Shown here: piece by piece, positions 7,847 to 49,493 of the stretch | Layout: each line of letters opens with the position of its first letter | Numbering within the stretch: position 1 is the first letter of the stretch | NCBI GenBank assembly: GCA_016882195.1 | Contig: VGLU01000008.1 | Location: forward strand, 1-50,756 | Direction of reading: 5' to 3' | Length of the DNA stretch: 50,756 bases | DNA from: Thermoproteota archaeon | Lineage (GTDB): Archaea; Thermoproteota; Methanomethylicia; Methanomethylicales; Methanomethylicaceae | Notes under the pieces: model-generated | The model's database searches: none | What the model was told of the DNA's origin: nothing | Seen by the model: the letters and a program-made list of their open reading frames with translations, nothing else | Position numbers and translations under genes: made by a program

Positions 7847-8377
7847 ATGTCTGCTTACGCTTCTGAATCAATCAAAATCCCAGAGGGCATCGAGGTCTCC
7901 GTGGAAGGAATGTTGGTCACGGTCTCTGGTCCGAAGGGCAAGATATCAAGGGACTTTGCCCACTCAAGGCTGAAACTCTCAAAGAGGGGCGGCGAGATAC
8001 TCTTAGAGTCCCCCAGCAAAGGGAAGCGCCTCAACGCAACGGTTGGTACTATAGCGTCGCACATCCGGAACATGTTCAAGGGAGTGACCGAGGGTCACGT
8101 CTATAACATGAGGGTCATCTACGCCCACTTCCCCATAACCGTGAAAGTTGCCGGAAAGGATGTCCTGATCGAGAACTTCATGGGCGAGAGGTCGAAGAGG
8201 GTTGCCAAGATCGTGGGTAACGTCAAGGTCACCGTTCAAGGTGACGAGCTAATCCTAGAGGGGATAGACAAGGAAGAGGTAGGTCAGACCGCCGCGAACA
8301 TCCATATGGCCACTCATGTGAAGAAGATGGACCCGCGGGTCTTCCAGGACGGCGTCTATCTCGCGGAGAGGAGGTAA
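7847..8377 (+). CDS. rpl6: 50S ribosomal protein uL6 (L6)
   Basis: uL6, 176 aa, two repeated alpha/beta domains near the sarcin-ricin loop. Domain 1 includes IPEGIEVSVEGMLVTVSGPKG; domain 2 includes HFPITVKVAGKDVLIENFMG. The C-terminus KKMDPRVFQDGVYLAERR is typical of archaeal uL6. The start ATG follows uS8 after 11 bases. No irregularity. Confidence 0.95.
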   Translation: MSAYASESIKIPEGIEVSVEGMLVTVSGPKGKISRDFAHSRLKLSKRGGEILLESPSKGKRLNATVGTIASHIRNMFKGVTEGHVYNMRVIYAHFPITVKVAGKDVLIENFMGERSKRVAKIVGNVKVTVQGDELILEGIDKEEVGQTAANIHMATHVKKMDPRVFQDGVYLAERR

Positions 8378-15467: not shown

Positions 15468-16442
15468 GTGTTGTTTTTGCAGCCAAGAACGCCGTCTATC
15501 AAGGACAAGGAGCAGACGGACCCTGCACACGGCTGGACGCCTAGGTCTCGCCCTTTGAAAGAGTACCTAGAGACGGGTGTAATAAACCTGGACAAGCCGC
15601 CTGGTCCAAGCAGCCACGAGGTGGTGGCATGGGTCAAACGCCTCCTCGCTATAGACCGCGCCGGCCATGGCGGTACCCTGGATCCCAAGGTGAGCGGGGT
15701 CCTCCCGATAACCCTTGGCCGCTCCACCAGGATAATCTCCTTCATAATGAAGTCTGGCAAAGAGTACGCCTGTCTGATGGAGCTGCACGGCGATGTGGAT
15801 GATGACCCGCTTGAGAAGGTGATCAAGGAGTTCGTTGGGCCCGTCTATCAGATGCCTCCCGTGAGGTCGTCCGTCAAGAGGGCGCTGAGGGTTCGCACAA
15901 TCCACTCCATAAAGGTTCTTGAGAGGCAGGGGAGGTACGTTCTGATGAGGGTGGACTGCGAGGCAGGGACCTACATAAGGAAGCTCTGCCACGACATAGG
16001 CGAGGTTCTGGGCTGCGGCGCCCACATGCGGGAGCTCCGTAGGACCAAGGCCGGGCCGTTCAAGGAGGGCTCGGGCAGCATGAAGTTGCACGACCTCCTC
16101 GATGCCATAACCTTCTGGAAGGGGTCCGGCGACGAATCCCTGCTGAGGGAGGTCATAATCCCCATAGAGGAGGCGTTGTGGCAGTTCCCAAAGATCTTCG
16201 TGAGGGACTCCGCGGTCGATGCCATCTGCCACGGCGCGAATTTGGCCTCTCCTGGCGTTCTCAGGGTTGAGGGTGAGATAAAGGCTGGCGATACCATCTG
16301 CTTCATGACCATGAAGGGTGAGCTGATCGGGCTAGGGAGGGCCACGCTCTCCGGAGAGGAGATCCTGAAGTCAGATCATGGCATAGTGGCGAACACGGAG
16401 CGGACCGTCATGCAGCCGGGAACCTACCCGAAGGGCTGGTGA
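15468..16442 (+). CDS. cbf5: rRNA/tRNA pseudouridine synthase Cbf5 (TruB family)
   Basis: Catalytic subunit of H/ACA ribonucleoproteins, 324 aa, also able to make pseudouridine 55 in tRNA. The catalytic motif GHGGTLDPKVSGVLPI carries the active-site Asp (about residue 71). NLDKPPGPSSHEVVAWVKRL, the RRALRVR-like RSSVKRALRVRTIHS and CEAGTYIRKLCHDIGEVLG are family hallmarks. The C-terminal PUA domain runs from about 240 to the end (AVDAICHGANLASPGVLRVE). The exact start among GTG 15468, TTG 15471 and TTG 15477 is not decided by a clear ribosome binding site. Confidence 0.93.
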   Translation: MLFLQPRTPSIKDKEQTDPAHGWTPRSRPLKEYLETGVINLDKPPGPSSHEVVAWVKRLLAIDRAGHGGTLDPKVSGVLPITLGRSTRIISFIMKSGKEYACLMELHGDVDDDPLEKVIKEFVGPVYQMPPVRSSVKRALRVRTIHSIKVLERQGRYVLMRVDCEAGTYIRKLCHDIGEVLGCGAHMRELRRTKAGPFKEGSGSMKLHDLLDAITFWKGSGDESLLREVIIPIEEALWQFPKIFVRDSAVDAICHGANLASPGVLRVEGEIKAGDTICFMTMKGELIGLGRATLSGEEILKSDHGIVANTERTVMQPGTYPKGW

Positions 16443-17146
16443 ACTCCCTGCCGCCCCTAAACCGTGATGCACCTCCAGCACACTATTACTCTAGGGAACC
16501 ACCTAAGGAGAGGCGGAGGTTCGTCCTCAGGCTGGACATCAGGGGTCATCGCATGGAGTTCGCGAGTTCGAGCGGGATCTTCTCCAAGGACAGGATAGAC
16601 CTCGGCACCCTAGTGCTCCTGGAAAGCATGGTTCTTCCAGACGAGGGGGTAGTCCTCGATATGGGGTGCGGCTGCGGCGTGATAGGGATCACCATAGCAA
16701 AGATAAGGCCGAGGCTGAGGGTAACCATGGTTGATGTCAATCCGACTGCGGTAAAGCTTGCGAAGGAGAATATAGATACCAACGACGTTCAGAATGCTGA
16801 GGCCATTCACAGCGACCTCTACTCCGGTCTCGAGGGCAGGAGGTTCGACCTTATAATCTCCAACCCCCCACTGGCAGCAGGTTACAAGGTCATCTTTCCC
16901 CTCATAGAGGGTGCCAAGTCCCACCTCAAGAAGGGTGGCTGCCTGCAGCTGGTTCTCAGGAAGGGGGTCAATGCGATATCAAAAAAGATGAACGAGACCT
17001 TCGGTAACGTAGAACTTGTCTCGAGGAAGAGTGGCTACAAGGTCTTCAGGTCCTTGAACCAGAACGGTAAGCGACAAAGCCTCTCTGCAACCAATCGGTA
17101 TATGGGAGGATACGGGAAGCAAGAGCAAAAGCAAAAAACAAAATAA
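16439..17146 (+). CDS. Class I SAM methyltransferase, MJ0882/RsmC-like
   Basis: S-adenosylmethionine-dependent methyltransferase, 235 aa, of the small-domain RsmC-type family to which MJ0882 belongs; such enzymes usually methylate guanine N2 in rRNA or tRNA. Motif I is VLDMGCGCGVIGITIAK (about 73-89), the acidic residue of motif II is in VTMVDVNPTAVKLAKENI, and motif IV is IISNPPLAAGYK. A low-complexity tail (GKQEQKQKTK) ends it. The GTG overlaps the cbf5 stop, so it is probably co-translated with cbf5, which fits an RNA modification role. The substrate is not determinable. Confidence 0.8.
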   Translation: MNSLPPLNRDAPPAHYYSREPPKERRRFVLRLDIRGHRMEFASSSGIFSKDRIDLGTLVLLESMVLPDEGVVLDMGCGCGVIGITIAKIRPRLRVTMVDVNPTAVKLAKENIDTNDVQNAEAIHSDLYSGLEGRRFDLIISNPPLAAGYKVIFPLIEGAKSHLKKGGCLQLVLRKGVNAISKKMNETFGNVELVSRKSGYKVFRSLNQNGKRQSLSATNRYMGGYGKQEQKQKTK

Positions 17147-17208
17147 GAGGTATTCAAAAAGCTAGACAGGGGGCTTTTGCCGAGGTGTCCTAGCCTGGTA
17201 GGGAGCAG

Positions 17209-17224
17209 ACCAATCAAGGCTCAT
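17209..17224 (+). other. tRNA intron 1 (position 29/30), 16 nt
   Basis: Canonical bulge-helix-bulge: central helix GAGC (17203-17206) with GCTC (17219-17222), bulges AGA (17207-17209) and ATG (17223-17225), and an outer exon helix AGG (17200-17202) with CCT (17226-17228). Cutting after the second base of each bulge removes exactly 16 nt. The position within the anticodon stem is noncanonical. Confidence 0.85.
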
Positions 17225-17232
17225 GCCTGGAA

Positions 17233-17249
17233 AACGGCTAGGTCCTGCG
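17233..17249 (+). other. tRNA intron 2 (position 37/38), 17 nt
   Basis: Lies at the classical 37/38 site. Possible bulges are AAA (17231-17233) and CGA (17248-17250), with a central helix CTGG/CCTG that has one T-T mismatch (17227-17230 with 17244-17247). Its outer exon helix, the anticodon stem, forms completely only when intron 1 is gone. The boundary can slide by one A without changing the product. Confidence 0.8.
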
Positions 17250-17352
17250 AGCCTGTGACTCGCAAGGGTCGCGGGGGTTCAAATCCCCCCCTCGGCGCCA
17301 TCCTTACGACCCCTTAAACCACTCCTATTCGTGAGGTCTTACAAAAGAAATT

Positions 17353-17403: not shown

Positions 17404-17892
17404 TTGAGTTCGTCATATAGACACATAGTCAGAATAGTGGATGCGGATCTCAAGGGTGAGGACAAGGTAGCGTACGCCCTAACCAAGATTAGGGGCATAG
17501 GGATCAACACCTCGTTTGCCATCTTGAGGAGCTGCGGTGTGGATCCGGAGACTCGCGTTGGCCTCCTTCAGGACAGCGATATAAAGAGGATAGAGGAGGC
17601 GCTCACGACCATCCAAACCAAGTTCCCCCGCCACATGCTCAACCGAAGGAAAGATCCGTTCACCGGTCAGGATCACCACTTACTCGGCTCAGACCTTGTG
17701 GTCGGTATGAAGTCGGACATCGACCACATGAAGAAGATGAAGTGCTGGAAGGGCGTAAGACACTCACAGGGTCTCAAGGTTCGCGGCCAGTGCACGAGGA
17801 CCACCGGAAGGTTTGGCGCTGCGGTCGGCGTTGCAAGGAAGGCGATCCTGCAGCAGCAACAGGCAGCGCAACAACAGGAAAAGAAGGAATGA
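17404..17892 (+). CDS. rps13: 30S ribosomal protein uS13 (S13), TTG start
   Basis: uS13, 162 aa, in the 30S head contacting P-site tRNA and uL5. Signatures are YRHIVRIVDADLKGEDKVAY, LTKIRGIGINTSFAILRSCG and the tail region WKGVRHSQGLKVRGQCTRTT. The end is a Gln/Ala run (QQQQAAQQQEKKE), unusual low complexity. The TTG start is supported by AGGAG at 17392-17396, seven bases upstream. Confidence 0.95.
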   Translation: MSSSYRHIVRIVDADLKGEDKVAYALTKIRGIGINTSFAILRSCGVDPETRVGLLQDSDIKRIEEALTTIQTKFPRHMLNRRKDPFTGQDHHLLGSDLVVGMKSDIDHMKKMKCWKGVRHSQGLKVRGQCTRTTGRFGAAVGVARKAILQQQQAAQQQEKKE

Positions 17893-48284: not shown

Positions 48285-49493
48285 ACCCTTCAGCCCCTTC
48301 GCAGAGACTATCTTAATTATATCACGTTCCTTTAGGATGTAGTCCTCACCTATCTTCTGGCCCGTCCTGGCATTGACGGCATAGAGGAACCCCTCACCGA
48401 GGTCTGTGTGTATCTTATATGCCAGCCCCCTAGCCGTCGTCCCCTCCTGGACAAGGAAGACGTCCGGCAGGACGCTGCCTTTGTGGTCTGTGAACTTACC
48501 AGCGTCCTCAACGGGGAAGACCGGGATCATCTTCAGCTCCCTCTTATATACTGCCTCTACGGCCTCCTGCACGCCCGTGTTCCCCCACCTGCTGAGAAGC
48601 CGCTCTATCCTCTTTAGTGCCCCCCTCTGCTTCTCGGTCAGCTCCGAGTCCTTCAGGACTCTGAACTCGCTGTCCCCAGCCATGTAGCTTATCAGCCCCT
48701 TCTTCGCGGCGAGCCTGAGGGCCAGCTCAGCCTCGGCAGAGCAGGGCACGACCGAGAAGTCCTTGAACTCTGCCCTGAGCCTCTCTATGTTTCCCTCGGC
48801 AGTCGGTAGGTCTATCTTGTTGGCCGCTATGACCATCGGCTTGGAGGCCCTTCTCAGCCTCTCAACGAAGAGCCTCAGGTCGTCCTCGGACCACTGATCT
48901 ATCCTCTTACCCAACACGTCATCCGACTTCATAACCGTGAGTATGTGCTTCTTGGTGATCATCAGCCCCGTGAGCCTGTCCGAGAGGAGGGCTAGGGGGT
49001 CCTCCTTGAGTTGAAGGACGCCCTTCACGATCCTGTCCCACTCCTTCTTCAGGATCTGTAGCATCCACATCGTTACCTCGTACTCCAGAAACCTCACGTC
49101 GTCAATGGGGTCTCTGGCTCCGGGCTCGCACATGTTGCCGTTGGCGTCGGTGCACCCAGCGGCGTCTACAATTTGTATGAAGCCGTCTGCTTGGCGGAGG
49201 TCGTCGAGGAACTTGTTTCCAAGTCCCCTCCCCTTGTGCGCGTCCGGGACGAGCCCTGCGACGTCCACGAGCTCGACCGGCACCCACCTGATGCCGTTGA
49301 CGCAGACAGAGTTGCGCGGCTCGTCCTTCACGCCCAGTTCTTGGCAGACGCACTTGACCCTGATGCTCGCGATACCCCTGTTCGGCTCTATTGTGGTGAA
49401 GGGTACCTGCCCTATCTTTGCCGGTGCGAGCGTCGCTGCCGAGAAGAACGTAGACTTGCCCACGTGCGTCTTACCCACGACACCCGCGATCAT
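48282..49493 (-). CDS. Obg-family GTPase with TGS domain (YchF/Ygr210-like)
   Basis: 403 aa. N-terminal G domain: Walker A VVGKTHVGKST, switch region IGQVPFTTIEPNRGIASIRV, G3 DVAGLVPDAHKGRGLGNKFL, and G4 IAANKIDLP. The NKID is the GTP-specific form, unlike the NKxE of YchF/Ola1, pointing to the archaeal/fungal Ygr210-type branch. A TGS domain closes the protein (ARGLAYKIHTDLGEGFLYAV). Such GTPases are linked with ribosomes or translation. Single gene, minus strand, own TATA box. Confidence 0.87.
   Translation of the reverse strand: MIAGVVGKTHVGKSTFFSAATLAPAKIGQVPFTTIEPNRGIASIRVKCVCQELGVKDEPRNSVCVNGIRWVPVELVDVAGLVPDAHKGRGLGNKFLDDLRQADGFIQIVDAAGCTDANGNMCEPGARDPIDDVRFLEYEVTMWMLQILKKEWDRIVKGVLQLKEDPLALLSDRLTGLMITKKHILTVMKSDDVLGKRIDQWSEDDLRLFVERLRRASKPMVIAANKIDLPTAEGNIERLRAEFKDFSVVPCSAEAELALRLAAKKGLISYMAGDSEFRVLKDSELTEKQRGALKRIERLLSRWGNTGVQEAVEAVYKRELKMIPVFPVEDAGKFTDHKGSVLPDVFLVQEGTTARGLAYKIHTDLGEGFLYAVNARTGQKIGEDYILKERDIIKIVSAKGLKG

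Follow-up and report, generated by a model that had tools for sequence, protein, structure and literature searches.

A tRNA-Ser(GGA) gene of Methanomethylicales with two short introns in overlapping bulge-helix-bulge motifs

Positions 17179-17300 of the window (the whole stretch of DNA analyzed, 50,756 nucleotides) contain a 122-base tRNA-Ser(GGA) gene, which is interrupted by two introns of 16 and 17 nt and encodes its own CCA (Table 1). With a probability of about 0.96, this is a functional single-copy gene, from which one precursor would be made that carries two bulge-helix-bulge (BHB) introns, to be cut out by the archaeal splicing endonuclease, with the exons joined by RtcB. The S13 protein encoded downstream matched proteins of a Candidatus Methanomethyliaceae SPRUCE bin (87%) and of Methanomethylicia LCB019-004, Candidatus Methanomethylicus oleisabuli and Candidatus Methanomethylicus mesodigestus (77-78%), the last of which NCBI taxonomy assigns to Methanomethylicales, Thermoproteota; judged by this protein identity, the genome probably belongs to a Methanomethylicales relative.

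Table 1. Coordinates of the gene, its splicing motifs and neighbors in the window, and of three other intron-bearing tRNA genes of the same genome (G000).
Feature	Position	Strand	Details
Exon 1	17179-17208	plus	positions 1-29; acceptor 5' strand and D arm; its end is the join point in intronless and single-intron orthologs (L070, L112-L114)
Intron 1	17209-17224	plus	16 nt at 29/30, ACCAATCAAGGCTCAT; alone in L068/L069, missing from L070, L112-L114 and L121
Exon 2	17225-17232	plus	positions 30-37, anticodon GGA inside
Intron 2	17233-17249	plus	17 nt at 37/38, AACGGCTAGGTCCTGCG; alone in L070 and L121, missing from L068/L069 and L112-L114
Exon 3	17250-17300	plus	position 38 to G73 and encoded CCA; class II variable arm, T arm, acceptor 3' strand
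BHB1, 5' side	17199-17206	plus	outer strand UAGG (17199-17202) and central strand GAGC (17203-17206); D-arm 3' region
BHB1 central helix, 3' strand	17219-17222	plus	GCUC, within intron 1
BHB2 central helix, 3' strand	17244-17247	plus	CCUG, within intron 2
Bases common to both motifs	17226-17230	plus	CCUG (17226-17229), BHB1 outer strand; CUGG (17227-17230), BHB2 central strand
D-arm stretch	17189-17195	plus	CCUAGCC, perfect complement of the intron-2 stretch
Intron-2 stretch	17236-17242	plus	GGCUAGG, perfect complement of the D-arm stretch
Upstream neighbor	16439-17146	plus	small-domain methyltransferase (MTS), PF05175; next to the gene in 20 of 20 first-search orthologs
Downstream neighbor	17404-17892	plus	ribosomal protein S13 (rps13); next to the gene in 17 of 20 first-search orthologs, some ortholog stretches stopping short of rps13
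tRNA-Leu(TAA), L140	G000:C2 ~52924-53051	minus	20 nt at 30/31 (helix GGCA/UGCC), 20 nt at 37/38 (helix CUUA/UAGG)
tRNA-Trp(CCA), L101/L125	G000:C2:51564-51738	minus	30 nt at 28/29, 64 nt at 37/38
tRNA-Arg(GCG), L100	G000:C4 ~48883-48992	plus	one 34-nt intron at 29/30

Splicing of the three exons in silico generated an 89-nt RNA with the structural features of a class II tRNA-Ser(GGA): a 7-bp acceptor stem (GCCGAGG/CCTCGGC), a D stem, a 5-bp T stem, a long variable arm and a 5-bp anticodon stem (CAGGC/GCCTG) closing the loop CTGGAAA, with GGA as the anticodon. The original prediction had described such a tRNA, with introns totaling 33 nt and an anticodon arm that takes shape only after excision of both. 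All of its coordinates proved correct when the exons and introns were re-read in the window, and the five-pair stem indeed appeared only in the joined sequence. The anticodon, G73, the variable arm and conservation suggest that the tRNA is charged with serine and used in translation.

A first search of 40 relatives yielded 19 orthologs (20 genes with that of the window), to which a broader search, run with the sequence freed of introns, added L112-L114 and L121. Both introns were present in 17 genes, the window's included, with 12-17 nt for intron 1 and 11-23 nt for intron 2. Two genes (genus g7) have only the first intron, of 12 nt, and two have only the second, namely L070, from another family of the order (12 nt), and L121, from family f8 (11 nt at 37/38). 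Three genes of family f4 are devoid of introns and show an unbroken anticodon arm, reading continuously CAGGCCTGGAGAGCCTG. The boundaries of each intron are fixed by these comparisons because some orthologs lack that intron. The two-intron gene is also found in four named genomes, where it is identical to L053, L059, L063 and L064 across the matched stretch.

The mature fold is fully maintained: all 420 of 420 alignment cells were paired for the 21 pairs tested (20 distinct rows), a count that does not represent independent events since the orthologs are related. The anticodon GGA is invariant among them. Ten of the 20 genes have G-C at pair 29-41 and the other ten A-U, without a single mismatch; this pair forms only after removal of intron 1, and its partners flank intron 2. 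At the level of sequence comparison, this 10:10 covariation and the existence of orthologs with both, either or no intron at the same sites exclude a chance origin of the two-intron pattern.

Intron 1 is embedded in a complete motif (BHB1), with an outer helix (UAGG/CCUG), a central helix (GAGC/GCUC), bulges AG-A and AU-G (the hyphen marking the cut) and an inner helix of only 1-2 bp. It displays the 4-bp helix, the two 3-nt bulges and a cut site behind the second base of either bulge, which together define archaeal BHBs. The 3' strand of the central helix is GCUC or GCUU in all 19 intron-1 genes and pairs with GAGC every time. Among the orthologs, 97.3% of the BHB1 cells were paired (96% in the outer helix, 100% in the central helix) versus 17-58% when the partners were slid, and the inner pair (columns 33-40) has undergone changes on both sides. 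The full motif with outer helix originally proposed at 29/30 is therefore present and supported by the orthologs.

The motif around intron 2 (BHB2) uses the anticodon stem as outer helix. Its central helix, CUGG/CCUG, contains one U.U mismatch, and the bulges are AA-A and CG-A, so that the archaeal BHB appears here at 37/38 in a relaxed form with three of four central pairs. A mismatch is present in BHB2 of 13 of the 18 intron-2 genes of the alignment, the central helix being perfect (CUGG/CUAG) in L057, L061, L062, L065 and L066. Pairing amounted to 92.4% of the BHB2 cells in the orthologs versus 19-52% with slid partners. From the sequence of the window alone, the intron could be placed at 37/38 or 38/39. 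The latter is ruled out by L059 and L060, whose intron begins with C or T, and 36/37 by the window gene itself; comparison with the orthologs thus leaves the 37/38 site that had been predicted.

In ViennaRNA predictions, BHB2 had a low probability for nearly all orthologs, as did the mature anticodon stem in its G-C versions, while most A-U versions folded as expected (0.97). Both low values are due to a competing hairpin. tRNAs lacking their modifications are often mispredicted in folding, and as a proof of BHB2 such probabilities are uninformative. We also considered an alternative hairpin of the intron-1-less precursor (GCAGG-CCUGG...CUAGG-U-CCUGC). Its lower part requires CAGG/CCUG, which is lost where position 29 is A; as this pairing is not maintained, the BHB is the better supported of the two structures.

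The enzymes that splicing would require are encoded in the genome. Two paralogs of the splicing endonuclease family (PF01974) are present there and in nearly all relatives. The first has the Tyr/His/Lys pattern of a catalytic-type subunit and matches crenarchaeal catalytic subunits (PDB 3p1z_B, E 2.5e-46); the second, aligned to M. jannaschii EndA, reads KEPAKY versus KEHSVY and is without the His. Such a pair fits a two-subunit alpha2beta2 endonuclease, the type that accompanies non-canonical introns (PMC4090602, PMC4033280). The RtcB ligase is encoded as well. Its gene (L096/L097, G000:C11:26366-29068, plus strand) is split by an intein-like insert of ~440 aa, which ends ...NFVAEGFIVSN ahead of Cys.

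BHB1 and BHB2 are mutually exclusive, because their strands overlap and because BHB2 needs the whole anticodon stem. This overlap leads us to expect stepwise splicing, most simply with intron 1 leaving first. BHB1 would form between the 3' strand of the D arm and exon 2, and the endonuclease would cut it, followed by joining at 29/30. Loss of intron 1 would rebuild the anticodon stem, BHB2 not being intact earlier; BHB2 would then form from the anticodon stem and loop and be cut and joined at 37/38, RtcB presumably performing the joining. For introns that lie close together, the authors of tRNAscan-SE 2.0 describe multi-intron tRNAs whose next BHB can form only once one intron has left (PMC8450103).

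The same two-intron gene could conceivably lose intron 2 first, or its introns in free order. The bases of BHB1 would still be available after removal of intron 2, and for one relative, L066, folding of the unspliced precursor predicts BHB2 (P 0.96). Yet, as long as intron 1 is present, BHB2 is flanked by just two anticodon-stem pairs (30-40 and 31-39), and its predicted probability does not exceed 0.01 in the other unspliced precursors. We therefore regard this alternative as unlikely and favor removal of intron 1 first.

A feature of intron 2 may bear on this order. Of the 17 two-intron genes, 11 show complementarity between the D arm (CCUAGCC) and intron 2 over 7-10 bases, G-U pairs counted, a length that shuffled introns reach in 0.4-7% of cases, depending on the gene. 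No such complementarity was found in the six two-intron genes with a CCUAGUC D arm, nor in L070, which has intron 2 only. Intron 2 might pair with the D arm, keep that arm open and make its 3' strand available for BHB1; the intron would then serve as an internal chaperone determining the order in which the two introns leave. Removal of intron 2 lowered the predicted BHB1 probability in eight of the 11 genes and raised it in three, among them the window gene (from 0.02 to 0.12). We consider a chaperone role doubtful; since the genes are closely related, the complementarity may be a single ancestral accident.

Standard tools do not retrieve the gene. ARAGORN reported no tRNA in the whole window, and a genome-wide search with the Rfam tRNA model gave only a partial match of 15.2 bits, under the cut-off of 29. 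In a permissive cmscan, the best local Rfam match was tRNA-Sec (28.1 bits, for a cut-off of 47). The warning that a standard finder might miscall its type was thus justified. Rejection by ARAGORN as well as by the Rfam tRNA model would be expected of a pseudogene, or of a decayed tRNA that merely resembles an intron-bearing gene. This is very improbable, as the gene is found at this locus in 20 genomes, its stems being intact and showing compensatory changes, and is the sole Ser(GGA) gene found in its genome. A second one, which the original prediction had said would, together with absence of spliced reads, speak against it, was not found in G000 (1.45 Mb, 97.4% complete) with Rfam, hand analysis and inspection of additional T-arm-like sites; the other Ser genes are GCT, without intron, and TGA and CGA, each with one intron at 37/38. 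It is hardly credible that the locus encodes a selenocysteine tRNA, as the cmscan match would have it, or a tRNA of some other type and fold. The score lies below the family cut-off, the anticodon is GGA rather than UCA, and the match treats the introns as loops and requires the D arm to pair over a long range. Moreover, the orthologs without introns are ordinary class II tRNAs carrying the loop CTGGAGA, which refutes the tRNA-Sec reading.

By Rfam and hand analysis, the genome contains ~45 tRNA genes, roughly 20 of which bear introns. At least two others, Leu(TAA) and Trp(CCA), have two introns and share with Ser(GGA) the placement of these, one within the 5' anticodon stem plus one at 37/38. 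Both central helices of the Leu(TAA) gene are perfect; the Rfam tRNA model misses this gene, and many relatives have full-length or near full-length matches. In Trp(CCA), whose overall layout is conserved in the 15 genes aligned, the inner stem of the 28/29 intron covaries, and the 64-nt intron has conserved TGATGA-like and TGACC stretches, which may represent the known box C/D guide. The Arg(GCG) gene has the same anticodon stem as Ser(GGA) (CAGGC/GCCTG), with a dissimilar intron sequence.

Several other tRNA loci of G000 were recorded. 3' fragments of tRNA-Phe (L049, G000:C10:3869-3931) and tRNA-Asp (L145, G000:C11 ~8096-8150) may be scars left behind by elements that inserted into tRNA genes. 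A tRNA-like gene (L039, G000:C17:5319-5392) seems to have an anticodon loop of 8 bases, GTTGGTAC, flanked by the stems CCAGT/ACTGG. At the ends of contigs C2/C15 and C11/C33 lie near-identical genes for tRNA-Leu(CAG) and tRNA-Asn(GTT), probably assembly repeats at tRNA genes.

That archaeal tRNAs may contain several introns, up to three, is established (PMC8450103), and 29/30 is a listed non-canonical site, for recorded intron lengths of 11-129 nt (PMC4090602). Of the statement that such tRNAs are known in some archaea, mainly thermophiles, and are uncommon, the first part holds and the rest is out of date. The multi-intron genes of Thermoproteales (Pyrobaculum and relatives; PMC4090602, PMC4033280) similarly carry several short BHB introns each, at 37/38 and at non-canonical sites including 29/30, and are accompanied by a two-subunit endonuclease; they belong, however, to another class of archaea, and most tRNAs of the present genome carry at most one intron. 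Caldiarchaeum subterraneum has a two-intron tRNA-Thr, along with other multi-intron tRNAs and a natural variant without one of the introns (PMC3293823), but the sites are 24/25 and 45/46 instead of the 29/30 and 37/38 of our tRNA-Ser. Non-canonical multiple introns are also found in soil archaea, the wetland Asgard Atabeyarchaeia and Freyarchaeia (PMC11291895), where they affect over half of the tRNA genes, compared with three such genes found here. Our search, which reached few subscription journals, yielded no paper on tRNA introns in Methanomethylicia/Verstraetearchaeota. While multi-intron tRNAs and site 29/30 were already known, we found no report of a two-intron Ser(GGA) gene in Methanomethylicales.

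These findings extend the range of archaea bearing multi-intron tRNA genes to the Methanomethylicales and uncover an essential tRNA overlooked by standard searches, indicating that routine annotation under-counts the tRNA sets of such genomes. Furthermore, the series of orthologs with no intron, the first only, the second only or both allows intron gain, intron loss and the order of intron removal to be tested directly.
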